A DNA stretch of 64,000 nt from Streptomyces sp. NBC_01231 (GTDB taxonomy: Bacteria > Actinomycetota > Actinomycetes > Streptomycetales > Streptomycetaceae): assembly GCA_035999765.1 (NCBI GenBank), contig CP108521.1, forward strand, positions 1,116,001 to 1,180,000, read 5' to 3'. The position numbers and the translations under genes are program-made. Under the pieces are notes generated by a model that saw nothing but the letters and a program-made list of their open reading frames with translations, ran no database searches and was not told the origin of the DNA. Numbering within the stretch: position 1 is the stretch's first letter; each line of letters starts with the position of its first letter. Below, piece by piece: positions 10,875 through 42,838 of the stretch.

Positions 10875-11079
10875 GGAGTGGCCCTTCAGCGCGGCCGTCC
10901 CGATATGTTTCACGATGTGTCCGTGTCTGTAGTTCTGTCGCAGGGCATGCCGAAGTCGCTCGCGGCGATGGTGCGACCAACGGGCAGGGGTCAGGAGTTA
11001 CGAGGTGCCGGTCACGGCTTGTCGTCGTGCTGTCGTCGTCGGTCAGGGAAAGCGTTCGGGAACAGCGCTCAGGGCACCT

Positions 11080-11619: not shown

Positions 11620-11629
11620 GGCCTCCCCT

Positions 11630-12136: not shown

Positions 12137-12243
12137 CCGCACCGTCCCCGTTCCGGTCAACCCTCTACACCTAGGGAAAGACGGTGGCCCCCGCGGCACG
12201 ATGCACTGCGGCCCTATGATCCGGATCACACTGCACCGCGGCT

Positions 12244-12412: not shown

Positions 12413-12456
12413 CGGGACAGGCGGGCGAGCACGGTCCTCGCCTACGGTCCGGTGGT

Positions 12457-12487
12457 GCCCGGCCGCCCGAAACCCGGGCGGCCGGGC
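12457..12487 (-). terminator. Strong hairpin downstream of pgm
   Basis: A perfect 13-bp stem (arm GCCCGGCCGCCCG) with a 5-base loop, 11 bases beyond the pgm stop. No U-tract. Confidence 0.75.
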
Positions 12488-12498
12488 AGGCCGTCGTC

Positions 12499-14139: not shown

Positions 14140-14289
14140 GCCCGCTCCCACAGATCGTTCGGCCTACGGTGAAGCCCCCATCCTTCCTCGTCACGGCGGT
14201 CTTTTGCGAGTCCGCCGCAGGTTCCTCGCGGGAGCGGGCGAAAGTGGTTCTGCGGGTTTGATTCCCGCTGAGACGTGTACGCGAAGTAC

Positions 14290-15828
14290 ATGGCCCAGTC
14301 GATACGAGAGACGGAACGAAAGTACGAGGCTCCGGCCGCCGACGACACCTCCTGGCTGCCCGACCTCACCGACGTGGTCGGCATCGCGTCCGTGGCGGAC
14401 CGGGGCACCGACGACCTCGACGCCGTGTACTACGACACCGTGGATCTGCGGCTGGTCGGCGCCTCGGCCACCCTGCGCCGCAGGACGGGCGGCTCCGACG
14501 CCGGCTGGCACCTCAAGCTGCCGCTGCCCGGCGACAGCCGCGAGGAAGTGCGCGCCCCGTTGTCCGACACGGTCCCGGGCGACCTGCGTGACCTGGTGGT
14601 CTCCCGTACCCGGGGTGCGGAAGTGAGGCCGGTGGTCCGCCTGCGCACCGAACGTCACAGGCGGGAGCTCGCCGATGCCGACGGCGCCGTGCTGGGTGAG
14701 CTGAGCGTCGACGCGGTCGAGGCGGAGTCGCTGCTCGGCGGGGCCACGCGGGCCTCGTGGACGGAGCTGGAGGTCGAGCTCGCCGAGGGCGCCGACCCGG
14801 AGCTGCTGGGGGCCGTGGACACGATGCTGCGCGAGAGGGGCGTCGAGCGGCTGCCCGGTCCGTCCAAGCTCGCCCGCGCGCTGGAGGAGACAGGGGTGGG
14901 CGCGCCCCGGCTGCCGGACGTGCGGGCCGAGGACGTGGTGGCGGGCTCGGCCGGGGATCTCGTCCTCGGGTATGTGGAGAAGCAGGTGCGGGCCCTGGTC
15001 GAACTCGATCCCGCGGTCCGCCGGAACCTGCCGGACTCGGTGCACAGGATGCGGGTCGCCTGTCGTCGGCTGCGGAGTGTGCTGCGCTCGTACCGTTCGG
15101 TCCTGGACCGCGGGGCCACCGATCCCGTGCGCAGGGAACTGAAATGGCTGGCCGGTGCACTGGGCGCGGAACGCGACCACGAGGTCCTTCAGGAACGGCT
15201 CGACGCCGGGGTCGGTGCCCTGCCGCGGGAACTGGTCCTGGGACCCGTCACGGCCCGGCTCCAGGCGTGGCACGTCACCAAGACCTCCGAGGCCCGGACG
15301 CGTACGCAGGACGCCTTGGCGTCGCCCCGCTATCTGGCCCTGCTGGACTCGCTGGCCGGCCTGGTCGCACGGCCTCCGCTGCGCCGCAAGGCCGCCCGGA
15401 AGCCGAAGGACGTGATGGCCAAGGCGGTCCTCAAGGAGTACGACCGGTTCGCCGGCCGGGTCGGGGTGGCCCTGGAGACGTCGCCCGGCGCGGACCGGGA
15501 CGCGGCCCTGCACCAGGCTCGCAAGGCGGCCAAGAAGACCCGGTACGCCACGGAGCCTGCCCGCGCCTCACTCGGCAAGCCCGCCAAGCGCCTCGGCAAG
15601 CGGGTCAAGACAGTCCAGAAGGTGCTCGGCGACCACCAGGACAGCGTGGTGGCCCGAGCCGAACTGCGCCGGATGGCGGTCGCGGCGGGAACGTCCGGTG
15701 AGGCGAGCTTCACCTGGGGCCTTCTCTACGGACGGGAGCAGACGGCGGCCGGCGAGCGACAGCGGGAACTCCCGGAGGTCTGGGCCCGCGCCTCGAAGCC
15801 CGCGCTGCGCAAGGCACTCGGGCGCTGA
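14290..15828 (+). CDS. CYTH and CHAD domain protein, polyphosphate-associated
   Basis: 512 residues. The N-terminal CYTH domain opens with ETERKYE and contains alternating charged strands (YYDTVDLRL, LRRRTGG, WHLKLPLPG) typical of triphosphate tunnel enzymes. The C-terminal half is CHAD, with conserved basic helices VHRMRVACRRLRSVLRSYR and HQARKAAKKTRYA and the closing LGDHQDSVVARA. CHAD binds inorganic polyphosphate; CYTH may hydrolyse triphosphate or polyphosphate. The start is not firm: the ATG at 14290 begins five codons after an alternative GTG and neither has a strong ribosome site. Confidence 0.92.
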   Translation: MAQSIRETERKYEAPAADDTSWLPDLTDVVGIASVADRGTDDLDAVYYDTVDLRLVGASATLRRRTGGSDAGWHLKLPLPGDSREEVRAPLSDTVPGDLRDLVVSRTRGAEVRPVVRLRTERHRRELADADGAVLGELSVDAVEAESLLGGATRASWTELEVELAEGADPELLGAVDTMLRERGVERLPGPSKLARALEETGVGAPRLPDVRAEDVVAGSAGDLVLGYVEKQVRALVELDPAVRRNLPDSVHRMRVACRRLRSVLRSYRSVLDRGATDPVRRELKWLAGALGAERDHEVLQERLDAGVGALPRELVLGPVTARLQAWHVTKTSEARTRTQDALASPRYLALLDSLAGLVARPPLRRKAARKPKDVMAKAVLKEYDRFAGRVGVALETSPGADRDAALHQARKAAKKTRYATEPARASLGKPAKRLGKRVKTVQKVLGDHQDSVVARAELRRMAVAAGTSGEASFTWGLLYGREQTAAGERQRELPEVWARASKPALRKALGR

Positions 15829-15881
15829 CGTCCGACGGCGGACTCCGGCTGTTCGGCCGTTCATTCAGCCACGCCGGTGCG

Positions 15882-16970
15882 TCATTCCCGGCCGGGCCGG
15901 CCGTCGCCGTCCGTGTCTCCGGGCGGCAGGCCGGGCAGATCGTCGGCGTCCGTGTCTCCGGGCGGCAGGCCGGGCAGGTCGTCGGCGTCCGTGTCTCCGG
16001 GCGTCTGGGCGCGTGGTGTGTCGCCGGCGGTGAGGTGCTCCAGGACCTCCGCCAGCTCCTGGCAGGCTCGCTCCACCGAGCGTCTGGTGTTGCGCTGCTC
16101 GGTGATGACGGCCGACAGGAGCAGGGCGATCGTGGCCATGGTGCCGTTGAACGCCTGCAGTTTGATCATCACCTCGACCCGGGTCAGCCCGGCGAAGGGC
16201 CCCACCCCGTCCGTCGCGGCGACGGTGGCCATGACGCATGTGAAGAGTGCGCAGAGCATGCTGCCGGCCAGCCGGAAGCGCAGAGCCACCCAGATCAGCA
16301 ACGGATAGACGAGGAACAGCAGGCTGGCCTCGTTGCGCGTGGCCAGCGGTACGACGACGCAGGCGATGACGGTCAGCCCCACGGCCTCCTTCCACCGGGC
16401 CATGGGCAGCGGTCGACGCGCCCCGTACAGCAGCAGCAGGAGCGGGGTGACGATCAGGACGCCCATCGCGTCGCCCACCCACCACGCGAGCCACACCGGC
16501 CAGAAGCTGCCGGTGTCGAGCCGGTCGGTGACCACGAGGATGCCGACGCCCACCGTGGAGCTGATCAGCATGCTGGTCAGGGCCCCCAGGAACACCAGGG
16601 CGAGGCCGTCCCGCAGTCGGCTGAGATCGGTGCGGAAGCCCACCCGGCGCAGCAGGAGGTACGCGCAGACGGGGGCGACGGTGTTGCCCGCCAGGTTGCC
16701 GAGCACGTCGGGCCGGAACGCGGTGATGTGCACGATGACGAGCAGGACACCCAGCGCGATGCCGGGCCAGGCACGCAGCCCGAGGATCAGCAGACAGGCC
16801 ACCGCCACACCCGTGGGCGGCCAGATGGGTGTGAACACCGCGCCCTCGACAACCAGGTCGCGCAGAAGTCCGAGCAGCCCTGCCGCGTAGTAGCCGCCGG
16901 CGACTGCCAGCGTCTGGAGGGCGAAGACGCCGGTGCGGCGCAGATCCTCGGTGCCCACCACACCAGCCAT
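15882..16970 (-). CDS. MASE1-type integral membrane sensor protein
   Basis: 362 residues. About eight hydrophobic helices occupy residues 10-300 and match a MASE1 sensory domain (FTPIWPPTGVAVACLLILG, GNLAGNTVAP, LAWWVGDAMGVLIVTPLLLL). No output domain (GGDEF, kinase) follows; the tail is a hydrophilic repeat built of PGDTDADDLPGLP. The start overlaps the stop of the upstream phosphatase by one base (TGATG), so sensor and SpoIIE-type phosphatase are made together and may form a split two-protein signalling unit. The ligand is unknown. Confidence 0.85.
   Translation of the reverse strand: MAGVVGTEDLRRTGVFALQTLAVAGGYYAAGLLGLLRDLVVEGAVFTPIWPPTGVAVACLLILGLRAWPGIALGVLLVIVHITAFRPDVLGNLAGNTVAPVCAYLLLRRVGFRTDLSRLRDGLALVFLGALTSMLISSTVGVGILVVTDRLDTGSFWPVWLAWWVGDAMGVLIVTPLLLLLYGARRPLPMARWKEAVGLTVIACVVVPLATRNEASLLFLVYPLLIWVALRFRLAGSMLCALFTCVMATVAATDGVGPFAGLTRVEVMIKLQAFNGTMATIALLLSAVITEQRNTRRSVERACQELAEVLEHLTAGDTPRAQTPGDTDADDLPGLPPGDTDADDLPGLPPGDTDGDGRPGRE
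15908..16002. repeat. 39-bp direct repeat in the 3' end of the MASE1 gene
   Basis: Two full copies (15908-15946 and 15947-15985, two base differences at most) and a partial third. They encode 13-residue units PGDTDADDLPGLP. The length is a multiple of three, so copy-number change would keep the frame. Confidence 0.85.
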
Positions 16971-17851
16971 CAGACACCGGTACGGCCGTCCCGGCGAGAC
17001 AGGGGCCTCGCGCTGCCGCCCTCTGGCTGAACCTCGGGCCCGTCGTAGCCGAGGACCAGCACCGCGGCGTCGTCCTCGTGGCCCACGCGGTCGGCGCCCT
17101 TGATCACGGCGGCGGCGAGCGCGTCCACCGCCATGCCCGCCACGGCGGCGGCGCCCGCCAGCCGGACCACCTGGTCCAGCCCCTGGTCGACCTCCATCAG
17201 GGGCCCTTCCACCACGCCGTCCGTGAGCAGGACGAACACTCCGCCCGTGGTGAGCTGGTGCCGGGTCACCGGGTACGTCGTCCCCGCCTGGACGCCGAGC
17301 GGCGGTCCCCCGTCCCCGTCGACGATGCCGGACCCTCCGTCCGCGGTGGCCCAGACACAGGGGATGTGTCCGGCCCGGGCGCTCTCCAGCACCCCGGTGG
17401 ACGGGTCGAGACGTATGAAGGTGCAGGTCGCGAAAAGCTCGGTGCCGAGGGACAGGAGCAGGTCGTTCGTCCGGGCGAGAAGCTCGCCGGGCTCGCTCGT
17501 GACGGAGGCGAGCGCCCGCAGCCCCACCCTCACCTGACCCATGAACGCGGCGGCCTCGATGTTGTGGCCCTGGACGTCGCCGATCGACAGCCCGATGCGG
17601 CCGTCGGGCATCGTGAAGGCGTCGTACCAGTCCCCGCCCACATTGAGGCCGTGGTAGGCCGGTGCGTAGCGGACGGCGAGGTGGTAGCGCGGCGCCGCCG
17701 GCATGTCCGCGGGCAGCATCCCGCGCTGCAGGGCGATCGCCAGCTCGACTCGGGAACGCTGCACCTCCGCGCGTTCGCGCGCCTGCGCGGTCAGCGAGCC
17801 GAGCCTGGTCAGCAGCTCGTCGCCGTCGTCCGTGGGGCGCTTGCGGGACAT
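16970..17851 (-). CDS. Soluble SpoIIE/PP2C-type serine phosphatase
   Basis: 293 residues. A short helical lead (LLTRLGSLTAQARERAEVQRS) and LAIALQRGMLPADMP introduce a PP2C-like domain of the RsbU/SpoIIE group: NVGGDWYDAF, LSIGDVQGHNIEAA, ARAGHIPCVW, VFVLLTDGVVE and HEDDAAVLVLG supply the metal-binding acids. It lacks membrane segments and a PAS/GAF sensor. Sensing is therefore probably supplied by the MASE1 protein whose gene overlaps its stop codon. Ribosome site GGAG lies 6 bases before the ATG. The likely role is dephosphorylation of an anti-anti-sigma factor; none is encoded nearby. Confidence 0.92.
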   Translation of the reverse strand: MSRKRPTDDGDELLTRLGSLTAQARERAEVQRSRVELAIALQRGMLPADMPAAPRYHLAVRYAPAYHGLNVGGDWYDAFTMPDGRIGLSIGDVQGHNIEAAAFMGQVRVGLRALASVTSEPGELLARTNDLLLSLGTELFATCTFIRLDPSTGVLESARAGHIPCVWATADGGSGIVDGDGGPPLGVQAGTTYPVTRHQLTTGGVFVLLTDGVVEGPLMEVDQGLDQVVRLAGAAAVAGMAVDALAAAVIKGADRVGHEDDAAVLVLGYDGPEVQPEGGSARPLSRRDGRTGV

Positions 17852-27525: not shown

Positions 27526-29423
27526 GCATCCCGTTCGAACTGCCCGCGGAGGACCGCGAGTCGAGCCCGTACACCGGCTACACCCGGGCCCACTGGGAAG
27601 CGGTGGCCGACGGTCTGCTGACGGCGGCGTGGCGTTGGAGCACACCCGGCGGCGCGCTGTTGGACCTGCCCGGCCGGCCCTCACGTTCGGGGGTGCGCTC
27701 CGACGGGCTGGAGGGCTACGCCCGGACGTTCCTCGCCGCCGCCTTCCGGGTGGCGGGCGCCCGGGGCGACGATCCGCACGGCTGGCTGGACCGCTACGCG
27801 CGCGGCCTCGCCGCCGGCACCCGCGACCCCGGCCGCGAGGACACCGAGTCCTGGCCGCTGATCCTCGATCACCATGTGCAGGGCCAGCCCATGGTCGAGT
27901 CGGCGTCGGTGGCGCTCGGCCTGCGGCTGACGGCCCCGTGGCTGTGGAAACACCTCGACGGCGACGTGCAGGACCGGACCGAGGAGTGGCTGCGCGGCGC
28001 GCTGCGGCACACTCCGGCGCCGAACAACTGGTACCTGTTCCCCTTCACGGTGGCCGGTTTCCTGGAGTCGGTCGGCCGGGGGGACGCCGAGACGGCGGCC
28101 GTGCGGGAACGCGCGCTGGAGCTGATGGAGACCTGGTACCGGGGCGAGGGCTGGTACGCCGACGGCGACGGGCGCGCCTTCGACCACTACAACGGCTGGG
28201 CGCTGCACCTGTATCCGGTGCTCGACGCGTACCTGGGCGGCGATCCGGAACTGTCCGCGCGCTACGGCCCAAGGCTGCGCGCCCACCTGGACGGGTTCGC
28301 GCTGATGTTCGGCGCGGACGGGGCGCCGCTGCACTTCGGCCGTTCCCTGACCTACCGGTTCGCCGCTTCGGCGGCCGTCGGTCTGGGCGCCCTGACCGGG
28401 GACACACCGCTCTCCCCCGGCACCTCGCGGCGGCTGGCGAGCGGCAGTCTGCGGTACTTCCTCGATCGCGGCGCGCTGACCGACGACGGTCTGCTGAGCC
28501 TGGGCTGGTTCGGCCCGCACGAGGCGACGCTGCAGTCGTACTCGGGTCCCGCCTCCCCCTACTGGGCGTCGAAGGGGTTCGTGTCGCTGCTGGCGCCCGC
28601 GGACCATCCGCTGTGGACGGCCCGCGAGGAGGCCGCGCCCGTCGAGGAGGCCGACCGGGTGCTCGCCCTGCCGGCGGCGGGTCTGCTCGTTCAGGCGACG
28701 CGCGGCGACGGGATCGTACGACTGCACAACCACGGCAGCGACCATGTGCGCCCGCACGAGGGGGAGGACGCCCGAGCCGACGATCCGCACTACGGACGCC
28801 AGGCCTACTCGACCCGTACCGGCCCGACTGCGACCGGGAACATCGCGGACAACCATCTGTCGCTGGAGGTGGCCGGCCGGCGCAGCGTGCGGCGGCGGAT
28901 CCATCCGCTCGGCGCCGGGCAGGGCGACGGGTGGGGCTGGGCGGCGTCGTGGCACCTGCCCGTGTTCGCCGGCGGGCCGCCCACCGTGCCGGGGCTGCGG
29001 GTGGAGAGCGTGACGGTGGCGCACGGGCCGTACGAACTGCGGGTGCACCGGGTGGTCGGGGCTCCGGCCGGAACCCTCGTGACGCAGACCGGGTGGGCCA
29101 CCGGCCCCGAGGAGGAGCTGGTGTCGACGCTGCACGGCCCGCACGGGTGGAGCGGGCCCGCCGAGCCGGCCCGGGCCCCGCAGGGCACCGCCTACACGCC
29201 CTGGGCCCGGGTGCCGCGGCTGGTGGGCCGGGCCGGGGGCACCACGGTGCACGTCTGTGTCGCGCTGCTGACCGGCGGTGCGGCACCGGATGACCCGGCG
29301 GAGGCCGTCACATCCGTGACGGTCGACGGTGCCGAGGTCGAGGTGGGATGGGGCGGGGCGGTGGGCGGGGCGCTGACGCGGATCTCGTTCGAGCCGCTGA
29401 GGGTGTCGCACGATCCGGTGTGA
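27522..29423 (+). CDS. DUF2264 domain protein, probable glycan-processing enzyme
   Basis: 633 residues beginning MSIPFELPAEDRESSPYTGYTRAHWEAVAD, which matches the DUF2264 start. The first about 370 residues look like an all-alpha toroid seen in unsaturated glucuronyl hydrolases and heparinase-like enzymes (TESWPLILDHHVQGQPMVES, NNWYLFPFTVAGFLE, WYADGDGRAFDHYNGWALHLY). The rest is a beta-rich domain. It carries no signal peptide, so it acts in the cytoplasm on imported oligosaccharide. Start overlaps the dehydrogenase stop (ATGA), making it the last gene of the coupled uptake operon. The reaction is not established. Confidence 0.85.
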   Translation: MSIPFELPAEDRESSPYTGYTRAHWEAVADGLLTAAWRWSTPGGALLDLPGRPSRSGVRSDGLEGYARTFLAAAFRVAGARGDDPHGWLDRYARGLAAGTRDPGREDTESWPLILDHHVQGQPMVESASVALGLRLTAPWLWKHLDGDVQDRTEEWLRGALRHTPAPNNWYLFPFTVAGFLESVGRGDAETAAVRERALELMETWYRGEGWYADGDGRAFDHYNGWALHLYPVLDAYLGGDPELSARYGPRLRAHLDGFALMFGADGAPLHFGRSLTYRFAASAAVGLGALTGDTPLSPGTSRRLASGSLRYFLDRGALTDDGLLSLGWFGPHEATLQSYSGPASPYWASKGFVSLLAPADHPLWTAREEAAPVEEADRVLALPAAGLLVQATRGDGIVRLHNHGSDHVRPHEGEDARADDPHYGRQAYSTRTGPTATGNIADNHLSLEVAGRRSVRRRIHPLGAGQGDGWGWAASWHLPVFAGGPPTVPGLRVESVTVAHGPYELRVHRVVGAPAGTLVTQTGWATGPEEELVSTLHGPHGWSGPAEPARAPQGTAYTPWARVPRLVGRAGGTTVHVCVALLTGGAAPDDPAEAVTSVTVDGAEVEVGWGGAVGGALTRISFEPLRVSHDPV

Positions 29424-29497
29424 CGGACGGTGCGGGTGACGGCCGGGCACGGCGGGGGGTTCGGCGCAGCCCGTGCGGACCTGGCCGCCTCACTCGT

Positions 29498-30199: not shown

Positions 30200-31777
30200 G
30201 TGACGACTGAGGCGACAACGTCCGAGGCAAGGCAGACCGCGCGGCCCGTGCCCGACGGCACCGCCGACCGCATCGCCGACCTGGAAAGGCGTCGGGCGCG
30301 GGCGGTGTCCCCGGGCGGGGCCAGAAGGCGGGGGGAGTTCGACGCCCGGGAGCGGATCGACCGGCTGGTGGACGCCGGATCCTTCACCGAGACAGGGCTG
30401 TTCGTCCGGGCCCGGTCCGCCGGGGACGGGGCCCGCCGGCCCCACGGCGACGGGGTGGTCACCGGGACCGGCACCGTCGACGGCCGTCCGGTCTGTGTGT
30501 TCGCGCAGGACTCCGGCGTCTTCGGCGGCAGCATGGGCGAGGCGTTCGGCGAGAAGACCATCGCCCTGATGGACCTCGCCCTCAAGACCGGCTGCCCGGT
30601 CGTCGGACTCAACGACGGCGGCGGCGCCCGGATCCAGGAGGGCGTCGCCTCGCTCGCCCGCTACGCCGAACTGGTCCACCGCAATGTGCGGGCGTCCGGG
30701 GTGATCCCACAGATCTCGGTCGTGCTCGGGCCGTGCGCCGGCGGGGCCGCCTACTCGCCCGCGATCACCGACTTCACGGTGATGGTGGACGGCGCCTCAC
30801 ACATGTTCGTCACCGGACCCGACGTCATCGAGACGGTCACCGGCGAACGCGCCACCGCCGAGGAACTGGGCGGCGCGCACACCAGCAACTCCGTCAACGG
30901 CAACGCCCACTTCCTCGCCGCCGACGAGGAGGACGCCCTCGACACCGTGCGCGACCTGCTGTCGTACCTGCCCCCCAACAACCTGGAGCGGCCCCCGGAG
31001 TACGCCCCGGCCCCGCCGAGCGCCGACGGTGTGCCGCTCGACGAGGTCGTCCCCGACCGGCTCGGGCAGGCGTACGACATGCGCGACGTGCTGCGGGCGG
31101 TCGTCGACGACGGTGAACTCCTGGACGTCCAGGAGCTGTTCGCCCCGAACATCATCTGCGCCCTGGCCCGCGTGGAGGGGCGTTCGGTCGGAGTCGTCGC
31201 CAACCAGCCGCTGCACGCGGCCGGTGTCCTCGACATCGACGCCTCCGAGAAGGCCGCGCGGTTCGTGCGGTTCTGCGACGCCTTCGGGATCCCGCTGCTG
31301 ACCTTCGCCGATGTCCCCGGCTATCTCTCGGGCGTCCGGCAGGAGCGGGGCGGCATCATCCGGCGCGGCGCCAAGCTGCTGTACGCCTACGCCGAGGCGA
31401 CCGTTCCCAAGGTCACCGTGGTGGTGCGCAAGGCGTACGGCGGCGGGTACGCCGTGATGGGCTCCAAACACCTGGGCGCCGACGTCAACCTCGCCTGGCC
31501 CACCGCCCGGATCGCCGTGATGGGAGCCGAGGGCGCGGTGGGCCTCCTGCACCGGCGCGAACTCGCCGCCGCCGACGATCCCGAGGCGCTGCGCGCGCGG
31601 CTCGTGGCCTCGTACGAGAGCACTCACGGCACGCCCTATCTCGCCGCCGAACGCGGCTACGTAGACGCCGTCATCGCGCCGCGCGAGACCCGCGACCAGG
31701 TCTGCCGGGCCCTGCGCACCCTGCACGGCAAACGCGCGCCGATGCCACAGCGCCGGCACGGCAACATCCCTCTCTGA
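30200..31777 (+). CDS. Acyl-CoA carboxylase beta (carboxyltransferase) subunit, AccD4-like by context
   Basis: 525 residues, GTG start with GGAGGTG 4 bases upstream. Carboxyltransferase moves CO2 from biotin to an acyl-CoA. Landmarks: the N-half VFAQDSGVFGGSMGEAFGEK, LNDGGGARIQEGVASL, VVLGPCAGGAAYSPAITDF (oxyanion and acyl-CoA pocket), and the C-half PLLTFADVPGYLSG, RQERGGIIRRGAKLLYAYAEA and KAYGGGYAVMGSK. No biotin-carboxylase subunit is nearby. It precedes the FAAL and PKS genes, so it probably carboxylates the alpha-chain acyl-CoA used by that PKS. Propionyl- or acetyl-CoA as substrate is an alternative. Confidence 0.92.
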   Translation: MTTEATTSEARQTARPVPDGTADRIADLERRRARAVSPGGARRRGEFDARERIDRLVDAGSFTETGLFVRARSAGDGARRPHGDGVVTGTGTVDGRPVCVFAQDSGVFGGSMGEAFGEKTIALMDLALKTGCPVVGLNDGGGARIQEGVASLARYAELVHRNVRASGVIPQISVVLGPCAGGAAYSPAITDFTVMVDGASHMFVTGPDVIETVTGERATAEELGGAHTSNSVNGNAHFLAADEEDALDTVRDLLSYLPPNNLERPPEYAPAPPSADGVPLDEVVPDRLGQAYDMRDVLRAVVDDGELLDVQELFAPNIICALARVEGRSVGVVANQPLHAAGVLDIDASEKAARFVRFCDAFGIPLLTFADVPGYLSGVRQERGGIIRRGAKLLYAYAEATVPKVTVVVRKAYGGGYAVMGSKHLGADVNLAWPTARIAVMGAEGAVGLLHRRELAAADDPEALRARLVASYESTHGTPYLAAERGYVDAVIAPRETRDQVCRALRTLHGKRAPMPQRRHGNIPL

Positions 31778-31936
31778 CCGACCCCCCATTCCTTCGCATG
31801 GGCCCAACTGGTCCGCCGGCCCGACCCGTTCGCCCCGCCCCGCCCCAACGCCCGTGTGCCACCGCTCGATCCGCCCCGCCCGACCGACCCGCGCCACCCG
31901 CGAGCCGCCCCCGCGACGTGAGGAGCCACGCCACCC

Positions 31937-33759
<1,823 letters not shown>

Positions 33760-33763
<4 letters not shown>

Positions 33764-36700
33764 AGGCCGTCGGCGAGGCCGCGCTGCGCCGCCTGATCGC
33801 CGAGCGGGTGGCCGCCTGGAACGACATGCCGGTCGGGTCCGTCCCGATGGACCGGCCGCTCGCGGACCTCGGCATGTCCTCCCGGGACGCGGTCGCCCTG
33901 GCCGGGGAGCTCAGTTACCTCCTGGGCCGCGAACTGCCCTCGACGCTGCTGTGGGAGACCCCGACCGGTGACGCCCTGGTGGCGCGACTGTGCGGCGAGG
34001 CGGAGGAAGTCGCTCCGGTTGCCGTCGACGACCGGTCGGCGCCCGGCAGGCCCGGCGGGCCCGGAGAAAACTACGAACCCGTCGCGGTCGTCGGGGTCGG
34101 CTGCCGTCTGCCCGGCGCGGTGCACGGGCCCGCCGACTACTGGCGGCTGCTGGACGAGGGCACCGACGCGATCCGCCGGGTGCCCGAGGACCGGTGGCGC
34201 GACTTCACCCCCTTCCCGCCCGCCGACGTGCCTCCGTACGGCGGCTATCTCGACGACATCGCCGGGTTCGACGCGGACTTCTTCCACATCACCCCGCGTG
34301 AGGCCGCCGTGATGGACCCCCAGCAGCGGATCCTCCTGGAGGTGGTCCATGAGGCGCTCGCCCACGCGGCCGTCCCGGCCGCCTCCCTCGCCGGCAGCGC
34401 CACCGGTGTCTTCGTCGGGATCTCCGCCCCGGAATACGGGCAGCTCACCGGCGCCGACCCGTCCGCCGTAGATCCGTGGGCGCCGGCCGGCGCGGCCCTC
34501 AGCGTGGCGGCGGGGCGGCTGTCCTACGTCCTGGACACGCGGGGCCCGAGCATGGCCGTGGACACCGCCTGTTCCTCCTCGCTGGTCGCCGTGCACCACG
34601 CGTGCGTCAGCCTGCGCACGGGCGAGAGCGACACGGCGATCGCGGCCGGCGTCAACCTGCTGCTCTCCCCCACCGTCACCATGGCGTTCCAGCGGGCGGG
34701 GGCGTTGGCGCCGGACGGCCGGTGCAAGCCGTTCTCGGCCGCGGCCGACGGCATCGGGCGCGGCGAGGGCTGTGCGGCCGTCCTGCTGAAGCGACTGTCG
34801 GACGCCGAGCGGGACGGCGACCGCGTCCTGGCGGTCATCCGCGCCACCGCCGTCAACTCCGACGGCCGTTCCGGCGGCCTGATGGCGCCCAACCCGGCCG
34901 CCCAGCGGGCCGTGTTGAGCACCGCGTACGCGCGGGCCGGCCTCGCCGCGTCGTCCGTCGACTACGTCGAGGCGCACGGCACCGGCACCCCGCTCGGCGA
35001 CCCGATCGAGGCCGGCGCGCTCGACTCCGTGCTCGGCCGGGACCGCGACCCGGACCAGCCGTTGCTGGTCGGCTCCGTGAAGGGCAACCTCGGCCATCTG
35101 GAGTCGGCGGCGGGCGTCGCGGGCCTGGTGAAGACGGTGCTCGCCCTCCATCACGACCGCCTCCCGCCCTCCCTGCACTGCGCGGACGGCAGCGCCCTGG
35201 GCGACGCACGGCTGCGAGTGGTGACGGAGGCCGAGCCGTGGCCCCGCTACGGCGGCACGGCCACCGCCGGCGTCTCCGGCTTCGGGTTCGGCGGCACCAA
35301 CGCCCATGCCGTACTGGAGGAATGGCGACCCGGCGCCCTGGTGCCGGACGCGGGCGGGGAACCCGTCGCCCACCTGTTCCCGCTGTCCGACGTGGACGCC
35401 GAACGGGTCCGCGACACCGCGGCCCGGCTCGCCGACTGGCTGCACACGCCGAACGGCGGCACCGCCCGCCTCGCCGACCTGGCCCGCACGCTCGCCGGAC
35501 GCACAGGACGCGGACGGGCACGCGCCGCCGTGACGGCCCGCGACCGGGCCGAACTCGCCGACGCCCTGGGCGCGTTGGCCCGTCAGCGGCCGCACACTCG
35601 GGTCGTCACGGACGAGCGCGACCTCGTCGGGCGCGGACCGGTGTGGGTGTTCTCCGGATACGGCAGCCAGTGGGCCGGCATGGGTCGGCGGCTGCTGGCG
35701 GAGGAGCCCGCGTTCGCCGCCGCCGTGGAGAAACTGGATCCGCAGCTCGCCGCGGAGTGCGGGCTGTCGCTGTACGACCACCTGGCGACCGGCGGTGACC
35801 TCGACCGGCTGGAGGTGGCCCAGCCCGTCCTGTTCGGGCTTCAGGTCGCGCTCGCCGAGCTGTGGCGGTCCCGGGGTGTGGAGCCCGTGGCCGTGATCGG
35901 CCACTCCCTGGGCGAGGTGGCCGCCGCCGTGTGCGCGGGCGCCCTGGACGTGCCGGACGCGGCCCGGATCGTCGCCGTACGAGCCCGGTTGCTCAGCGGG
36001 TTGAGCGGGGGCGCGATGGCCGTGGTCGACGTACCGGACGACGAACTGGACGGCCTGCGACGGGACTTCCCGGGCGTGCATGTCGCCGTGCACTCCTCGC
36101 CCCGGCAGAAGGTCGTGACCGGGCAGGAGCCGGACGTGGCCGCGTTCGTGCGGCGGCTGGAGGAGCGGGGCCGGGCCGCCCGGGTCATGCGGGTGGTCGG
36201 CGCGGGGCACTCACCGCAGGTCGACGCGCTGCTGCCGGAGCTGACCGAGGCCCTGGCCGGGCTGCGGGGACGGCCACCGCGTGTTCCCGTCTACTCCACC
36301 GTCCTGGACGACCCGCGCGGCGAGTCCCGCTTCGACGCCGCCCACTGGGCCGCCAACCTGCGACGGCCCGTACGTCTGGACCGGGCGGTGGCGGCGGCCG
36401 CCGAGGACGGTCACACCGCGTTCGTCGAGATCTCCCCCCACCCGGTCCTCGGGCAGACCGTCGCGGACACCGTCGCGGACGCGTTCGTCGTCGGCACCCT
36501 GCGCCGGGGCGCCGACGACTCGGCCGCGTTCACCGCGCAGCTCGGCACCCTGTACACCGCGGGGCTGCGGCTGCCCGTGCCGTCCGGCCGGGTGGTCGAC
36601 GTGCCCGCTCCGCGCTGGCGGCATGTGCGGCACTGGTGGACGGACGGCGTCCGTGACCGTCGTACCGAGCCGACCGGCGCGGCGCCTGCGGCGACTGCGG

Positions 36701-37881
36701 CGCGGGTCGCGACGGAGGCCGGCTCTGGCTCTGGCTTCGGTTCCGGCTCCGGCTCTGATTCCGTCGTGGATCGTCTGCGCCATCACGTCGCCGGCGTCAC
36801 GGGCCACCCGTCGGCGCGCATCACGCCCGGCACGGCGTGGGCGGATCTCGGCCTGGACTCGCTCATGGCGGTCCGGATCCGTGCGGCCCTGCAGTGCGAG
36901 TTCGGGGTCGAACTGTCGCTGCGCGATCTGCTCACCTCTGCGACCGTCGCGGAGGCGGCCGACCGGATCCGGCGCGTCCTCCCGTCCCCGGTGCCATCCC
37001 CGGCGCTGTCCGGGGCGACTTCTTCGGCTCCTTCGACGATTCCTTCGGCGGCCTCTTCGGCGGAAGACGACTCCCCGCTGCGGGTGCTGCGCGGCACCGG
37101 TTCTCGGCCTCCCTTCTTCCTCTTCCACGCGGCCGGCGGCTCGACCGACGTCTACCGGCGGCTCGCCGAACGGCTCGGGGACGACCGGCCGGTGTACGGG
37201 CTGGAGCGACAGGAGGAGACGGGCACGGTGGCGGACAAGGCACGCCGGTGTGCCGAGGCCATCGCCGCCGCGCATCCCGACGGCCCCTGTCTGCTGGGCG
37301 GTTGGTCCTTCGGCGGCTTCGTCGCCCAGGAGACCGCACGGCAGCTGACCGCCGCCGGGCGCACCGTGGACCTGGTGGTACTCATCGACTCCGTACGGCC
37401 CCTCCCCCGACCCGGCCACACCCCCGCCGACCGGATCCGCGCCCACCTCACCGGGTTCGCCCGGCACGTCGGCGACACCTACGGCGTCCCGCTGGAGCTT
37501 CCGTACGACGATCTCGTGGCCCTGGACGACGACGGCGAGCGCATCGACGCCGTGCTGCGTGCCGTGCGCGAGGTCGCCGACGTGCCGCCCGCCGCGCTGG
37601 AGCACCAGCGGTCCTCCTATCTGGACCTGCGGATCGGCGAGGCCCACCGGCCGGGCCGGTACGACGGACGGGTGCTGCTGTACCGCGCCCTCGAAGCGGC
37701 ACCGCACACCGTGCGCGACCCGGCGTACGAGCGCGAGGACGAGGCGCTGGGCTGGGACGAGGTGTGCCCGCGTCTGGAGGTGGTCCCGGTGCCCGGACAC
37801 CATCTCTCGCTCCTCGATCCGCCGCACGTCGACGAGATCGCCGTACACCTGCGGCGGGTGCTCGCCGAGCCGACCCACTGA
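33760..37881 (+). CDS. Pks13-like condensing polyketide synthase (ACP-KS-AT-ACP-TE)
   Basis: 1373 residues. N-terminal carrier domain with LGMSSRDAVALAGE and phosphopantetheine Ser41. Ketosynthase: DTACSSSL with Cys271, EAHGTGTPLGDP and GNLGHLESAAG. Acyltransferase: VIGHSLGEVAAA with Ser716 and an AVRARLL Arg suited to a carboxyacyl group. Second carrier: LGLDSLMAV with Ser1034, flanked by Gly/Ser and Pro/Ser linkers. Thioesterase: FLFHAAGGSTDVYRRL, GGWSFGGF with Ser1183, LIDSVRP with Asp1210, EHQRSSYLD, and GHHLSLLD with His1348. No KR, DH or ER. Domain order and wording, especially SSRDAVA and the thioesterase, match mycobacterial Pks13 from memory (about 1730 residues), which condenses two fatty chains to an alpha-alkyl beta-keto ester. 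Confidence 0.95.
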
Positions 37882-37941
37882 ACCGGACCCCGAGCGGCCC
37901 GGCCGCGACGGGAACCCCGAGCCGGAAACCTAGGAGCCGCC

Positions 37942-38874
37942 ATGTCCCCCCACTCCACCCCCGTGCCCCGACGCACCGTCACCAGAGCGGCGGCCGCCGC
38001 CGGGCTGGCCGTCCTGTTCGGAGCCGGGCACGCCCGGGCGGCGACCCGGGTCGGGCCGCGCACCCTTGACGTGTCCGTGCCCTCCGCGGCCCTGGGCCGC
38101 ACAGCGCCCGTGCGGCTGATCCTGCCGTCGTCCTTCGCCACCCAGCCGAACCGTACGTATCCGGTCCTGTACCTGCTGCACGGCGCCCACGACGACTACA
38201 CCTCCTGGACCCGGGAGACCGACATCGAGGCGTTCACCCAGGGCCGCGAGCTGATCGTGGCGATGCCGGACGCCGGACCCACCGGGATCCCGACCGCCTG
38301 GCGCAACGGGCCCGACTACGAGACCTTCCAGCTGGAGGAGGTGCCCGCACTGCTGCGCCGCGACTACCGGGCCTCGGGGGTGCGGGCGGTGGCCGGGGTC
38401 TCGACCGGCGGGTACGGGGCGATGGCGCACGCGGCCCGGCACCCCGGCATGTTCGGCGCCGCGGCCTCCTACAGCGGCATCCTCGACACCACCGCGCCCG
38501 GCGTGCCGCCCATCATGGACGCCATCGTGGCCCGCGAGAACCTGACGCCCGCCTCGCTCTGGGGCCATCCGATCCTGAACCTCCTCACCTGGCGGGACTT
38601 CAACCCGCGCGCCCGCGCCCAGGGCCTGCGCGGCACCGCCCTGTACGTCTCCAACGGCAGCGGCGTCGGGGGCGGCGGCGGTGATCCACTGCCCGGGGTG
38701 CTGGAGAGCGCGCTGTGGCCCTCCGCGCACCTGTTCACCAACGCGCTCGCCGTCCTCGGCATCTCGGTGACGACGCACTTCTCCTCCGGAGGCGGGCACG
38801 ACTGGGAGTACTGGAAGCCGGAGTTCGCCGCGTCGTGGCCGATGCTCGCCCGTGCGCTGGGGCTGCCCGAGTGA
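37942..38874 (+). CDS. Secreted antigen-85/esterase-D-like acyltransferase
   Basis: 310 residues. A signal with an early twin Arg (PRRTVTRAAAAAGLAVLF) ends near residue 34. An alpha/beta-hydrolase follows: VRLILPSSF, YPVLYLLHGAHDDYTSWTRETDI, the nucleophile elbow AGVSTGGYGAMAHAARHP with Ser154, and GGGHDWEYWKPEF with His286. These match the antigen 85/mycolyltransferase and esterase D superfamily (GLSMGG and GGHNWPYW-type motifs). It follows the PKS by 60 bases with TAGGAG before the ATG. In mycobacteria this family transfers mycolate from trehalose monomycolate; here it may transfer the PKS lipid outside the membrane. A plain esterase is the alternative. Confidence 0.9.
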   Translation: MSPHSTPVPRRTVTRAAAAAGLAVLFGAGHARAATRVGPRTLDVSVPSAALGRTAPVRLILPSSFATQPNRTYPVLYLLHGAHDDYTSWTRETDIEAFTQGRELIVAMPDAGPTGIPTAWRNGPDYETFQLEEVPALLRRDYRASGVRAVAGVSTGGYGAMAHAARHPGMFGAAASYSGILDTTAPGVPPIMDAIVARENLTPASLWGHPILNLLTWRDFNPRARAQGLRGTALYVSNGSGVGGGGGDPLPGVLESALWPSAHLFTNALAVLGISVTTHFSSGGGHDWEYWKPEFAASWPMLARALGLPE

Positions 38875-38996
38875 TGTCGGAGCCATGGGGGCACGGAACG
38901 GAGCGCAGGGGCCGTCCGTCCAACACAGGACGCCCCACTCACCCCACGGGGAACACCCCACGGGTGAGCCGCTTCCGGGTGAAAGGAGTGTCCGCG

Positions 38997-40217
38997 ATGG
39001 CTGTTCCCGCCCCGCACGGCGACCTGGCCGGACCCGCACCGGTACCGCCCGAACTGGCCAAAGTGCTGCGCGACCAACTGGAGTTGGTCGCCGACGAGGT
39101 GGAGGAGGAAGTCAGACGGCAGGTTCCCGAGTACGCGCGGCCGGCCGACGGGACCTACCGGGAGAACCTCAGAGCCGGGGTGGTGCTGGCGCTGACCCTG
39201 TTCGTCGACCACATCGCCGATCCGCGCGGACGCGGCGACGCGATCGCCGCGACGTACTACGAACTCGGGCGCGGCGAAGCCCTGGAGGGCCGCAGCCTGG
39301 ACGCGCTGCAGTCCGCGCTGCGGGTCGGCGGGCTGCACGCCTGGCGGCTGATGGGGCGTACGGCGGAGGAACTCGGACTGGACTCGGCGGTCGTGGCCGC
39401 GCTCGGTGAACTCGCCTTCCAGACCGTGCACGAGGTCGCCGAGGCGGCGGCCGCCGGCTACGCGGAGGCCCGGCTGCGCAGCACGGACGAGCTGGAACGG
39501 CGTCGAAAACGCCTGCTCGACCTGTTGCTGGGGGACGGGCCGGTGGCCCTGGAGGCGGTGCACGATCTGGCACACGGCGCGCGCTGGTCGGTGCCGCGGC
39601 AGGTCGCCGTCGTCGCGCTCGCGGCCGGCCCGGAGCAGCGCGAGGAGGACCGGCCGCTCGCCGCGGCGGGCGCGCTGGTGGACATGGCGTCCCGGCCGCC
39701 GCGCATGCTGGTGCCCGATCCCGACGGCTCCGGCCGGTTCGGCCGGGCGTTCGCCCTCGCCCTGCGGGGCCGGCCGGCCGCGATCGGGCCGACGGTTCCG
39801 CTCACCGAGGCACCGCGGTCGCTGCGCTGGGCCAGCCGGGCCCTGGGACTGATGGGTCGTGGGATCCTGCCCCGGCAGGGGGTGGTGCGGTGCGAGGACC
39901 ACCTCTCGACGCTGCTGCTGTACGGCGACGAACCGCTACTGGCGCAGGTGCAGGCGCGTGTCCTCACCCCCCTCGACTCCGTGTCGGCGGGGCAGCGTCC
40001 ACGACTCGCCGAGACGCTGCTGGCCTGGCTGCTCAGCGGCAGCAACGTCCCCGACGTCGCCGCACGGCTGCACGTCCACCCGCAGACGGTCCGCTACCGG
40101 CTCCGGCAGCTGGAGAAGCTCTTCGGCGAGGCGCTGCACGAGCCCGAGACCCGGCTGGACCTCGTGCTGGCGCTGCGCGCCGAGGCGTTGCGGGAGCAGG
40201 GGACGGAGGGCCGATGA
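38997..40217 (+). CDS. PucR/CdaR-type transcriptional regulator, FasR-like
   Basis: 406 residues. The C-terminus is a PucR-type helix-turn-helix (VPDVAARLHVHPQTVRYRLR then QLEKLFGEAL). Before it lies a helical N-terminal region and a central GGDEF-like/CdaR fold (WSVPRQVAVVALAAG). The FasR activator of streptomycete fatty-acid synthase genes belongs, from memory, to this family, which suits a site beside lipid genes. AAAGGAG lies 8 bases before the ATG at 38997. Its leader (38938-38968) has CTCACCC and GGGTGAG facing each other plus a repeated CCCCACGGG, a possible autoregulatory site. Control of the PKS cluster is inferred from position. Confidence 0.88.
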   Translation: MAVPAPHGDLAGPAPVPPELAKVLRDQLELVADEVEEEVRRQVPEYARPADGTYRENLRAGVVLALTLFVDHIADPRGRGDAIAATYYELGRGEALEGRSLDALQSALRVGGLHAWRLMGRTAEELGLDSAVVAALGELAFQTVHEVAEAAAAGYAEARLRSTDELERRRKRLLDLLLGDGPVALEAVHDLAHGARWSVPRQVAVVALAAGPEQREEDRPLAAAGALVDMASRPPRMLVPDPDGSGRFGRAFALALRGRPAAIGPTVPLTEAPRSLRWASRALGLMGRGILPRQGVVRCEDHLSTLLLYGDEPLLAQVQARVLTPLDSVSAGQRPRLAETLLAWLLSGSNVPDVAARLHVHPQTVRYRLRQLEKLFGEALHEPETRLDLVLALRAEALREQGTEGR

Positions 40218-40367
40218 TTTTCTCCCCGGGAATGATGCTCATGCGGGCACAAAAAGACGCGGTAATTCCATAATCCGCTGCATAACAGTACGTCAGGAAA
40301 GCGAATACGTTCGGGACCGTTCCTTTTCGCAGGCGCATCACGCGCCCCGCACGCAGAGGATTCCCCC

Positions 40368-41009
40368 ATGCGCATCCGCTTGTGCCTCGCCGCTCTCTCC
40401 CTGGTCGGCGGGGCCGGACTGGCCACCCTCTCCGCCCCCACAGCAACGGCCGCCGCCTGCACCGACATCGACGTCGTCGCTGCCCGCGGCACCTTCGAAC
40501 CGGGCACGCTCGGCTTCATCGTCGGCGACCCGGTGTATTCCGCACTCCAGAAGAAAATCACCGGAAAGACCCTGTCCAGCTACAAGGTGAACTACCCCGC
40601 GGACCTTTCGCTGACCTCGGCGGCGCGGGGCAACACGGACCTCGTGAACCATGTCAGGAGTCAGGCCGCCGCATGCCCGAACCAGCGTTTCATTCTGGTG
40701 GGCTATTCGCAGGGCGCGAACGTCGTCGACAACTCGATCGGTATCAGCAGCGCCGGCGCGGTGGTCGGCAGCCCGATCGTGGCCACCATCCCCGCCGCCC
40801 TCGAGTCGAGGGTCTCCTCCGTCCTGCTGTTCGGCAACCCGATCCGGGCGATAGGCAAGAGCGTCACCGGCACCTACCAGAGCCGCACCATCGACTTCTG
40901 CGCCAAGGGCGACCCCGTCTGTGAGAACGGAGGGGGTGACGTGGGGGCGCACCTCGGCTACACCGCCAACGCGGACGCGGCGGCGACCTTCGCCGCCGGC
41001 AAGGTCTGA
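40368..41009 (+). CDS. Secreted cutinase-family esterase (Culp-like)
   Basis: 213 residues with a Sec signal (LCLAALSLVGGAGLATL, cleavage near TAAA). The mature part begins CTDIDVVAARGTFEPGTLGF, contains the nucleophile motif FILVGYSQGANV with Ser114, the Asp loop DFCAKGDPVCENGG and HLGY with the His. Two Cys pairs fit the cutinase fold. This matches the actinobacterial cutinase-like proteins, one of which (Culp6, Rv3802c) adjoins fadD32-pks13 in M. tuberculosis and acts on envelope lipids. Plant cutin hydrolysis is the other reading. Its leader is AT-richer than the surroundings; AGAGGA precedes the ATG. Confidence 0.92.
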   Translation: MRIRLCLAALSLVGGAGLATLSAPTATAAACTDIDVVAARGTFEPGTLGFIVGDPVYSALQKKITGKTLSSYKVNYPADLSLTSAARGNTDLVNHVRSQAAACPNQRFILVGYSQGANVVDNSIGISSAGAVVGSPIVATIPAALESRVSSVLLFGNPIRAIGKSVTGTYQSRTIDFCAKGDPVCENGGGDVGAHLGYTANADAAATFAAGKV

Positions 41010-41119: not shown

Positions 41120-42838
41120 CTATCGGGGTGAGCGCGCGAACCGCGCGAGGTTGGTGGAGGTGGGCTCGGGCCGTCCGTTGTTCTGTACGGGCGCCGCGGT
41201 CAGCACGTCGAGGTGCTGGTAGCCGTCGGCGACCACCGGGTGCAGGTCGGCCGGGACCCGGCCCGCCAGCAGCCCGTCGCCCGCGAGCACGGTGAGCGTC
41301 GGATTCGCGGTGAGCCCCTCGGGATGCACGACCAGACCCTTCACCTGCGGCGAGGTCGACAGCTGGAGGTCGGTGACGAGCTTGGTCGGGAAGTACTGCT
41401 CGGTGAAGTCCAGCGGCTGCTCCGCGAGACTGCGGGCCAGCTCCTTGATGTCGGTGACCTCCTTGCCCGCGGTGGTGAAGGGGGTGCCGTCCGCCGACCG
41501 GTGTCCGGGGTCGTCGGGGTCGCCGACCCGGTCGTAGTTCCGCCAGGAATACAGCGGTCCGTGCGGGGTGTCGGGGATGGCCTTGTACTCGGTGCCGAAC
41601 AGACCCGGTTGGGCGTCGCCGCCGTTGGCGACGGGGAAGTTCTTGTCCGTGACCGGTCCGCCGTCGAAGAGTCCGACGCTGCTCTGCAGGAACGCCAGGG
41701 GGACGGAGTTGTCGTCCATCAGCGCTCCCAGGACGGCCGCATTGGTGAGGCGGAAGTCCTTCACGGCGGGTGTGCCGCTGAGGAAGGTGGCGGTGTCCTT
41801 GGAGAACAGGAAGCGGTTGGTGGCCTCGATGTTGACGTTGGCGGGCAGATAGCTGGGCAGGTCGGCCTCGCCGTCGGGGGCGTCGACCACGCCGAGCCCC
41901 GCGATCGCGAGCAGGGTCATGGTCTCGGGGTTGAGCAGCACCGGCGCGGACAGGGTGCGGGAGAGCAGCCCGCTGTCCAGGCCTGCCTGCACCACGCCGT
42001 AGCCGAGGCCGATGTCGGGCAGGTTGGTGTCGTCGGGGATGCTGCCGCTGAGGTCGCCGAGAGAGGTGGAGACGGTGGTGTCAAGGGCGAAGTAGCCGGC
42101 GCACTGGTTGTGTCCGGCGTCGGCGGTGGTGGCGGGGTTGCCGTCGAAGTCGGCGGTCGCGAAGTATCCGGTGATCACTCCGCCCAGCGAGTGGCCGCCG
42201 CACAGCACCTTGTTCTTGCGCAGTCGCTGGTCGGGGAGTTCGGCGGCCAGCAGGTCGTACTCGTCGCGGACGGTCTGCCCGATGCCGAGCTTCGCCATCC
42301 AGCCGAGGCGGTCGTTGCCGACGTAGCCGTCGAAGGTACGGCCGGCGACCTGTTTGCCGCGGTAGTAGTAGTCGACGGAGGTGTGCTGGTCGCCGGAGGC
42401 GATGCCGGTGCGGTCCTCCAGGCAGTTGGAGCGCCGGTCCAGGGCCCAGAACTCGATGTGGCTGCCCTGCTCGGCGGCGCGTGCCACGGTGTTGCGGGCG
42501 ACGCTGTCGAACGCCCCGGCCCCCTCCAGGATGCCCGGCTGGGCGAGGAGGACCCGGTCGGCGGCGGCCGAGGAGGCCGGTCCGGCGGAGGAGCGGTAGC
42601 GCAGGTACGACAGCCAGTCGCACGCCGCCGGACGCGCCCCGAAGGACGCCGGCAGCGGCACCTTGACCCGGACCACCGACTCGACCACTCCGTCGGGAGC
42701 CGACGTCGTCACCGGCGTCTCGGTCCGCGCGCCCTGTGCCTGGGCCCCGGGGGCGACGGCTGTCAGCGTCCCCGCGGTCAGCAGTACCGCCAGCGCGGCA
42801 CTTCGCCACGTTCTCATTCTGCTGCGACTCGTGTTCAT
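41120..42838 (-). CDS. Large secreted alpha/beta-hydrolase, lipase-like
   Basis: 572 residues with a Sec signal (AALAVLLTAGTLTAVAPGAQA). The nucleophile elbow is VLCGGHSLGGVITGYFA at about residue 215, preceded by AQPGILEGAGAFD and FWALDRRSNCLEDRTG. A long helical insertion follows, and HPVVADGYQHLDVLTAAP near the C-terminus supplies a plausible catalytic His. The arrangement suggests a secreted lipase or esterase of an actinobacterial family with unknown substrate. It converges on the cutinase gene, so two extracellular esterases lie side by side next to the lipid cluster. No clear ribosome site, so the exact start is uncertain. Confidence 0.82.
   Translation of the reverse strand: MNTSRSRMRTWRSAALAVLLTAGTLTAVAPGAQAQGARTETPVTTSAPDGVVESVVRVKVPLPASFGARPAACDWLSYLRYRSSAGPASSAAADRVLLAQPGILEGAGAFDSVARNTVARAAEQGSHIEFWALDRRSNCLEDRTGIASGDQHTSVDYYYRGKQVAGRTFDGYVGNDRLGWMAKLGIGQTVRDEYDLLAAELPDQRLRKNKVLCGGHSLGGVITGYFATADFDGNPATTADAGHNQCAGYFALDTTVSTSLGDLSGSIPDDTNLPDIGLGYGVVQAGLDSGLLSRTLSAPVLLNPETMTLLAIAGLGVVDAPDGEADLPSYLPANVNIEATNRFLFSKDTATFLSGTPAVKDFRLTNAAVLGALMDDNSVPLAFLQSSVGLFDGGPVTDKNFPVANGGDAQPGLFGTEYKAIPDTPHGPLYSWRNYDRVGDPDDPGHRSADGTPFTTAGKEVTDIKELARSLAEQPLDFTEQYFPTKLVTDLQLSTSPQVKGLVVHPEGLTANPTLTVLAGDGLLAGRVPADLHPVVADGYQHLDVLTAAPVQNNGRPEPTSTNLARFARSPR

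Follow-up and report, generated by a model that had tools for sequence, protein, structure and literature searches.

The window analysed here is a 64-kb stretch of the genome of Streptomyces sp. NBC_01231, the host genome, which is called the own genome below; coordinates are window positions. It carries six genes on one strand at 30200-41009 that encode a carboxyltransferase, a fatty acyl-AMP ligase (FAAL), a polyketide synthase (PKS), an antigen 85 (Ag85)-like protein, a PucR-type regulator and a cutinase. These families and positions, first given in a preliminary description made from the DNA letters alone, were confirmed by Pfam matches, reading frames and coordinates. The cassette probably joins two chains into a lipid through a Claisen condensation of the mycolate type, a reading adopted because of the phylogeny of the PKS, the signatures of its extender unit and the conserved linkage of the genes. 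The comparison with mycolate condensation drawn in the preliminary description was supported overall, and the product itself is predicted.

The Pks13-like synthase and its predicted extender unit

The window PKS has the ACP-KS-AT-ACP-TE order of Pks13 without reductive domains, and no match to a ketoreductase (KR), dehydratase (DH) or enoylreductase (ER) was found in it by Pfam. Motif residues were present in the N-terminal ACP (Ser40/41), the KS (Cys271, His406 and His446), the AT (Ser716, with a GAGH motif at 814-817), the C-terminal ACP (Ser1034) and the TE (Ser1183 and His1347/1348); these are presumably the catalytic residues. Among solved structures, the whole protein matched Pks13 best (825 bits), followed by MAS (659) and DEBS (618). 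The window TE alone matched the Pks13 TE with 147 bits and the next structure with 79; this search was relied on, as a TE search by alignment A3 included mycolate rows and leaned to Pks13. An EHQR(S/T)S-LD stretch was common to the window TE and that of Pks13 and was missing from one other own-genome TE examined.

A quick 56-row KS-AT tree, whose outgroup comprised 10 further PKSs of mycolate genomes and 10 PKSs of the own genome, united the window PKS and its relatives with mycolate Pks13 in one group (SH-aLRT 99). Inside this group the non-mycolate family was the sister of Pks13 and not nested within it, with weaker support for the family (86). KS-AT and TE did not fall with ordinary PKSs, a placement that would have spoken against the preliminary description. 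The trees drew on six of 24 longer loci of the window type and on 11 or 12 of 19 Pks13 genes, and SH-aLRT and approximately unbiased (AU) values come from one model only. Outgroup rows L101, L103 and L106 were dropped after the first KS-AT tree; before the second, L102 and L143-L146 (one long PKS type) and five duplicate Pks13 rows were dropped, and L136 was relabelled as Pks13. The label MAS-like on PKS rows is assumed to apply. Against the NCBIfam Pks13 equivalog model NF040607, the window PKS scored 1183.7 bits, below the cut-off of 2100 (mycolate-genome control, 2836.5), so it is not Pks13 itself. In a class-wide sample of 246 genomes with two candidates scored per genome, so that the counts are lower bounds, the model matched at E<=1e-280 in 25; 19 passed the cut-off, all of one family code, and the remaining six, which include the second cluster of the own genome, scored 942-1008 bits. 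On this phylogeny the window PKS is a sister lineage of mycolate Pks13.

The extender unit was approached through the AT motif. In ordinary ATs, according to the excerpted text of PMC6164871, YASH marks methylmalonyl and HAFH malonyl specificity. The motif was GAGH, AAGH or TAGH in 22 of the 24 family rows, GAGH being that of the window, and GGAH in the other two. Mycolate Pks13 had GASH (8 of 12) or GAGH (4 of 12). Ordinary PKS rows of the own genome had YASH/YGSH (5 of 11), HAFH (5) or AAAH (1), and 15 other rows from mycolate genomes had VASH, LASH, VAFH, VAAH, VPYH or HAFH, with no Pks13 form among them.

The carboxylase carries a related signature. MccB carboxylates medium-chain acyl-CoA and has Gly161 where short-chain enzymes carry Phe, a residue described in excerpts of PMC5187497 as universal at this position for known enzymes of C4 or shorter. 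Located by the YAEL-x motif and a conserved Phe, without an MccB alignment, the MccB-161 position is Val159 in the window carboxylase, and the PccB-422 position is Ala418. Val occupied the former in all 42 window-type carboxylase rows compared, a set that includes the window's own copy and five places fetched twice (36 remain), and Phe occupied it in 8/8 other own-genome carboxyltransferases. Carboxylases beside mycolate Pks13 had Gly or Ser there (25/25 rows from 19 distinct genes); at the PccB-422 position, they and the window carboxylase alike had Ala. Lacking Phe at 161 and having Ala at 422, the window enzyme shows putative AccD4/MccB-type pocket residues.

Eighteen related cassettes not of the window type were also compared, namely type B (L052, L054-L058), type C (L001, L048-L051, L053) and type D (L021, L113-L117). 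A crotonyl/octenoyl-CoA carboxylase/reductase (CCR) was encoded in 11 of them and a carboxylase in two, L021 and L114, with Ala and Gly, respectively, at the MccB-161 position. The CCR of L001, the second cluster of the own genome, was closest to the octenoyl-CoA reductase/carboxylase 4a0s (636 bits; crotonyl enzymes, 488-492). The other ten CCRs were 61-90% identical to that of L001, the only one compared with the PDB. Because of the AT motif, the carboxylase pocket residue and the CCR of related cassettes, the evidence points to a predicted alkylmalonyl extender larger than methylmalonyl in the window cassette.

Conservation of the block and related cassettes

Searching named genomes with the C-terminal portion of the PKS yielded 21 loci. 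Nineteen were from Streptomyces, and the six genes stood in order at 19/19 of these close loci, an arrangement whose spread among Streptomyces genomes the preliminary description had proposed to survey. The locus in Actinokineospora was a distant relative, and that in Algoriphagus had no block gene at E<=1e-10. The PucR gene, counted at the loci examined and without a genome-wide PucR search, was present at 19/19. A seventh, convergent gene downstream of the cutinase (Table 1) was found at 18 of the 19 named Streptomyces loci, the contig ending in the remaining one; it belongs to the same block as the six. Among relatives' loci, the carboxylase was present at 24/24 and the seventh gene at 23/24. 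The FAAL was flanked by carboxylase and PKS in 17/17 further genomes of the genus (L024-L040).

Co-occurrence was surveyed in 150 genomes of the genus, the own genome included, and the counts are lower bounds, the FAAL search having scored 8 candidates per genome and the Ag85-like search at most 15. The FAAL (>=75% identity) was found in 18 genomes, the cutinase (>=82%), the Ag85-like protein (>=78%) and the seventh gene (>=81%) in 17 each, the seventh gene in the same 17 as the cutinase. All four occurred together in 16, the FAAL alone in two, and only the FAAL was missing in one, where the fetched stretch stops with a contig end at the PKS; these three genomes are all assemblies of 630-1020 contigs. 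Fisher's test for the four-gene co-occurrence gave p 1.9e-18, uncorrected for phylogeny. Block carriers included S. scabiei and S. ipomoeae, which are plant-associated.

The near neighbours on either side of the window block were found in 0/24 relatives (>50% identity over half the length). Because the genes co-occur while these neighbours do not follow them, the block acts as a single unit set in changing surroundings. The flanking genes for a DeoR/LacI-type regulator, a sugar ABC transporter, an FAD oxidase and a TetR protein were rejected as members of the unit on the 0/24 of the near neighbours. For two upstream ABC-transporter genes and a downstream methyltransferase, 0/24 is no real test, as they lie at or beyond the reach of most relatives' stretches. 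The contig of L009 ends before the downstream side, which limits the flank comparison, and the upstream frame 27681-29450 (-) used in it overlaps a competing frame and may not be a gene.

Table 1 Genes of the block (window positions)
Product	Position	Strand	Evidence and remarks
Acyl-CoA carboxylase beta (carboxyltransferase) subunit, 525 aa	30200..31777	+	PF01039, 604 bits
Fatty acyl-AMP ligase (FAAL), 608 aa	31937..33763	+	PF00501 and PF23024 (DIP2-like AMP domain, typical of FAALs)
Pks13-like PKS, 1373 aa, ACP-KS-AT-ACP-TE	33760..37881	+	Pfam, PDB matches, trees
Secreted Ag85/mycoloyltransferase-like protein, 310 aa	37942..38874	+	PF00756
PucR-type transcriptional regulator	38997..40217	+	PF13556; start inferred at ATG 38997
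Secreted cutinase (CE5), 213 aa, GYSQG nucleophile	40368..41009	+	PF01083, 136.7 bits; PDB 4psc, 91 bits
Secreted alpha/beta-hydrolase-like protein, 572 aa, GGHSLGG elbow	41120..42838	-	Convergent seventh gene; signal-like N-terminus by eye

The FAAL stop and the PKS start overlap in an ATGA, in agreement with the earlier observation that the FAAL gene directly precedes the PKS, and relatives keep a Pks13-like PKS next to the FAAL. For the carboxylase gene, an in-frame GTG at 30068 is a possible alternative start. Further away, two genes at 58915-63158 resemble, by eye only, those for a beta-galactosidase and for one more secreted glycoside hydrolase.

The second cluster of the own genome, L001, lies 2.7 Mb from the window and encodes a FAAL, a PKS, the CCR, an Ag85-like protein and a GT-B glycosyltransferase. 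Its PKS contains a KR and a weak DH match, and that of L021 a KR and a full DH (Pfam); given these KRs, a single protein could produce the mycolic beta-hydroxy motif there. At E<=1e-50 the own genome has only two FAALs, found at its two Pks13-like clusters; the pairing of the FAAL with unrelated PKSs that the preliminary description had considered was not seen. The same two clusters hold the two strongest of the five PF00756 proteins of this genome (E<=1e-5).

An Ag85-like gene was present in 17 of the 18 related cassettes. L054-L058 were fetched through this gene, and there the finding is that a FAAL and a PKS lie beside it (5/5). Separate searches placed an Ag85-like gene within about 8-15 kb in 5 of 6 type C FAAL genomes, and one was present in 5/5 stretches fetched through the Pks13 model (L113-L117); no FAAL was found in the fetched stretches of L113 and L117. 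In L021 and L114 the genes run FAAL-PKS-carboxylase-Ag85, and the carboxylase immediately follows the PKS, as it does in mycolate loci. Transporters of the MFS family were seen near related cassettes, six by Pfam and five more by eye. PucR relatives of 46-47% identity stood at two related cassettes of another family (one Pfam-checked) and one of 36% at L058. The cutinase and the seventh gene had no tblastn match in the 18 type B, C or D cassettes.

Several further features were observed in these cassettes. L001:18071-19864 (+), at about 3830570-3832363 of G000:C1, encodes a relative of AftB-like arabinofuranosyltransferases (265 bits to NF041481, cut-off 1050); no such gene was seen at the other non-mycolate loci compared, 5 of 6 mycolate stretches had a match near Pks13, and one control scored 1177. 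L001:5350-6624 (+) is a TnpB-like frame, by eye, between the glycosyltransferase and Ag85-like genes, unmatched at the other loci compared. L113, from a distant family, encodes a Pks13-like PKS, a CCR, an Ag85-like protein, a GT-B relative, an MFS protein and a PucR relative (2-2566, 8363-17311), and a fragment of an MMPL-type transporter lies at the edge of its stretch. The type C PKS at L050:5532-12297 (-) was predicted as two overlapping frames and may be split, frameshifted or misassembled.

Proposed pathway and competing explanations

The most likely product of the cassette would be an alpha-alkyl beta-keto lipid with the mycolate motif, released by the Pks13-type TE and remodelled outside the cell. 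In the proposed pathway, the FAAL would adenylate a free fatty acid and transfer it to the N-terminal ACP of the PKS, while the carboxyltransferase of the cassette, with an alpha subunit from elsewhere, would convert a medium- or longer-chain acyl-CoA into alkylmalonyl-CoA. The AT would place the alkylmalonyl group on the C-terminal ACP, and the KS would join both chains with loss of CO2 to give an alpha-alkyl beta-ketoacyl thioester. Release by the TE could yield an ester on a hydroxyl acceptor or an acid. The beta-keto group might be kept, lost as CO2 after hydrolysis, or reduced by an enzyme encoded elsewhere. Outside the cell, the secreted Ag85-like protein, the cutinase and the seventh-gene hydrolase may transfer or trim the acyl ester, and the PucR regulator would control the cassette. 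The catalytic steps, chain lengths, acceptor, export and biological role in this scheme are inferred from the protein families.

The Ag85-like protein has a twin-arginine type N-terminus (by eye), a GVSTGG nucleophile elbow and an HDWEYW motif. Its best PDB match was 'Protein PS1' (133 bits), which we take to be a mycoloyltransferase-family protein of C. glutamicum and which ranked above all solved esterases (4rgy, 82); Cmt1 scored 75. The Ag85 tree contains no esterase outgroup. The seventh-gene protein had no Pfam family at E<=0.001 and a best PDB E value of 0.018, and its predicted structure had a mean pLDDT of 35; among 937 homologues, a few were named alpha/beta hydrolase or fungal lipase-like.

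A number of observations weigh against the proposed condensation or narrow it. The window carboxylase is overall PccB-like by sequence, its pocket residues not being so: it scored 693 bits against 9j0c, 690-692 against S. coelicolor PccB and 656 against 5inf. It scored 610-620 against AccD5-type chains and 504 against chain D4a of 9t97, which we take to be AccD4. The idea that it is closest to AccD4 was rejected on these scores. The same Val is found in 9j0c, its best solved relative, together with Gly at PccB-422. As Val is bulkier than the Gly of MccB and AccD4, the alpha branch may be short, or shorter than that of true mycolates. The FAAL tree rejected an exclusive clade of FadD32 and the window family (AU test, p-AU 1.65e-05), because another mycolate-genome FAAL is the sister of FadD32. 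Classical Ag85 proteins (about 47-53 bits; Ag85-A, 53) ranked below ordinary esterases (70, 65 and 58) in the search with the Ag85-like protein, and Ag85-like genes of ~40% identity had no PKS nearby in 3/3 fetched cases (L059-L061), most low-identity matches being unfetched. In five of the 18 related cassettes (L048, L053, L057, L115 and L116) the fetched stretch contained no supplier of the extender, two of the five being truncated at a contig or stretch end. A ketoreductase, an exporter and a carboxylase alpha subunit are all missing from the window block, and the role given to the cutinase and the seventh gene is a guess.

A considerable but lesser possibility is that the same condensation serves a diffusible specialised metabolite, such as a signal or a siderophore-like or inhibitory lipid, which the hydrolases would mature or inactivate without any link to the envelope. 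Patchy occurrence (18/150 for the FAAL at >=75% identity) and differing flanks are typical of specialised metabolism, and the MFS transporters near related cassettes and the KR and full DH of the L021 PKS point the same way. The repeated linkage to Ag85-like genes, in 5/6 type C genomes and 5/5 stretches fetched through the Pks13 model, nevertheless fits cell-surface ester transfer better. A feeding system appears unlikely. In such a system, the cutinase and a lipase-like enzyme would free fatty acids from cutin or suberin, and the FAAL and PKS would turn them into a storage or surface lipid. Close linkage of both hydrolase genes to the block, the use of free fatty acids by FAALs, and the presence of the block in the plant-associated S. 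scabiei and S. ipomoeae speak for it; yet neither gene was matched in the type B, C and D cassettes, which argues that the shared chemistry does without them.

It is similarly improbable that the PKS is an ordinary type I enzyme making a simple 2-methyl-3-oxo fatty acid, with methylmalonyl-CoA coming from a redundant propionyl-CoA carboxylase. The place of PccB among the best solved relatives of the carboxylase (690-692 bits) would agree with this. Its pocket residues, however, differ from those of the other own-genome carboxyltransferases, the window AT lacks YASH, and the second cluster of the same genome has an octenoyl-type CCR.

Relation to known systems and significance

The gene families and order of the mycobacterial locus that the preliminary description had listed agree with PMC2625445, which gives accD4-pks13-fadD32-culp6-fbpD-fbpA (Rv3799c-Rv3804c). 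The window block resembles this locus in its carboxyltransferase, in the FAAL directly before an ACP-KS-AT-ACP-TE PKS, and in encoding an Ag85-like secreted protein and a member of the cutinase family; in KS-AT and TE the PKS is sister to Pks13, and the AT motif class and the Ala position of the carboxylase are the same. It differs in that the PKS scores 1184 bits against a cut-off of 2100, the carboxylase is PccB-like overall with Val instead of Gly, the FAAL and cutinase are non-orthologous by the tests made, the PucR and seventh genes are extra, the gene order is another, and the host lacks PF04602 arabinosyltransferases. The window FAAL matched 5d6j, an 'acyl-CoA synthase', best in the PDB (416 bits), followed by named FadD32 (405) and FadD23 (376). 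It scored 519.7 bits against the NCBIfam FadD32 model (cut-off 975), so that, with the AU test, it was rejected as the exclusive sister of FadD32. The cutinase was rejected as Culp6, scoring 22.6 bits against the NCBIfam model (cut-off 570) with 22% identity to a Culp6 control that scored 642.8. Of the earlier assignment to the families of the mycolate locus, the sister relation of the PKS to Pks13 stood, and the carboxylase proved nearer to PccB, the FAAL not the exclusive sister of FadD32 and the cutinase not Culp6.

The block was also rejected as a mycolate locus proper, the Pks13, FadD32 and Culp6 models all staying below cut-off and PF04602 being missing. By gene content the host is not a mycolate or arabinogalactan maker, a point on which the earlier reading depended: no PF04602 match was found in the own genome (the C. 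glutamicum control matches), and neither the window PKS nor the listed own-genome match reached the Pks13 cut-off (2 of 90 candidates scored).

Among other systems, MccB of stambomycin biosynthesis and the octenoyl-CoA reductase/carboxylase 4a0s share with the window cassette a dedicated extender supply beside a PKS and a change of the C2-C4 pocket residue (PMC5187497, in part). MccB feeds a modular macrolide line, whereas the window has a single condensing module with an adjoining FAAL. Excerpts of the same paper describe a cryptic single-PKS-module cluster with an MccB homologue that is widely conserved in Amycolatopsis and is possibly a relative of the type D cassettes; it has a SamR0482 homologue too, and these excerpts mention no link to Pks13, FAAL or Ag85. 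In line with the preliminary description, which knew of no described product, no description of the cassette or its product, and no Pks13-like cluster in Streptomyces, was found in the parts of openly licensed PMC full texts covered by the search.

The proposed lipid has a likeness in Streptomyces. Lipstatin-type alpha-alkyl beta-hydroxy lipids are also two-chain products of Claisen condensation, made by stand-alone ketosynthase-III-type enzymes and a nonribosomal peptide synthetase rather than by a Pks13-like enzyme. Mycolic acids count as the defining trait of a single bacterial order. Streptomyces lacks a coat of mycolic acids, so the cassette probably makes an undescribed two-chain lipid. 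Pks13 is described as conserved across the mycolate-making order (PMC13324839, in part).

On balance, we lean towards a broader reading, in which a sister system of mycolate condensation, consisting of a FAAL, a Pks13-like PKS and an Ag85-like protein, is widespread in actinomycetes without a mycolate envelope. It would draw on two unrelated suppliers of alkylmalonyl-CoA, a carboxylase or an octenoyl-type CCR, would make mycolate-motif lipids with shorter alpha branches, could be gained as a seven-gene block, and may reflect an ancestor of the mycolic acid pathway. The exchange of carboxylase and CCR within one kind of setting amounts to a natural experiment on the extender taken. If this reading is true, sister enzymes outside the order would allow the origin of the mycolic acid pathway to be tested, easily handled soil Streptomyces would offer non-pathogenic models of Pks13-type and Ag85-type enzymes, and these bacteria would possess a class of lipids that ordinary product screens would miss.

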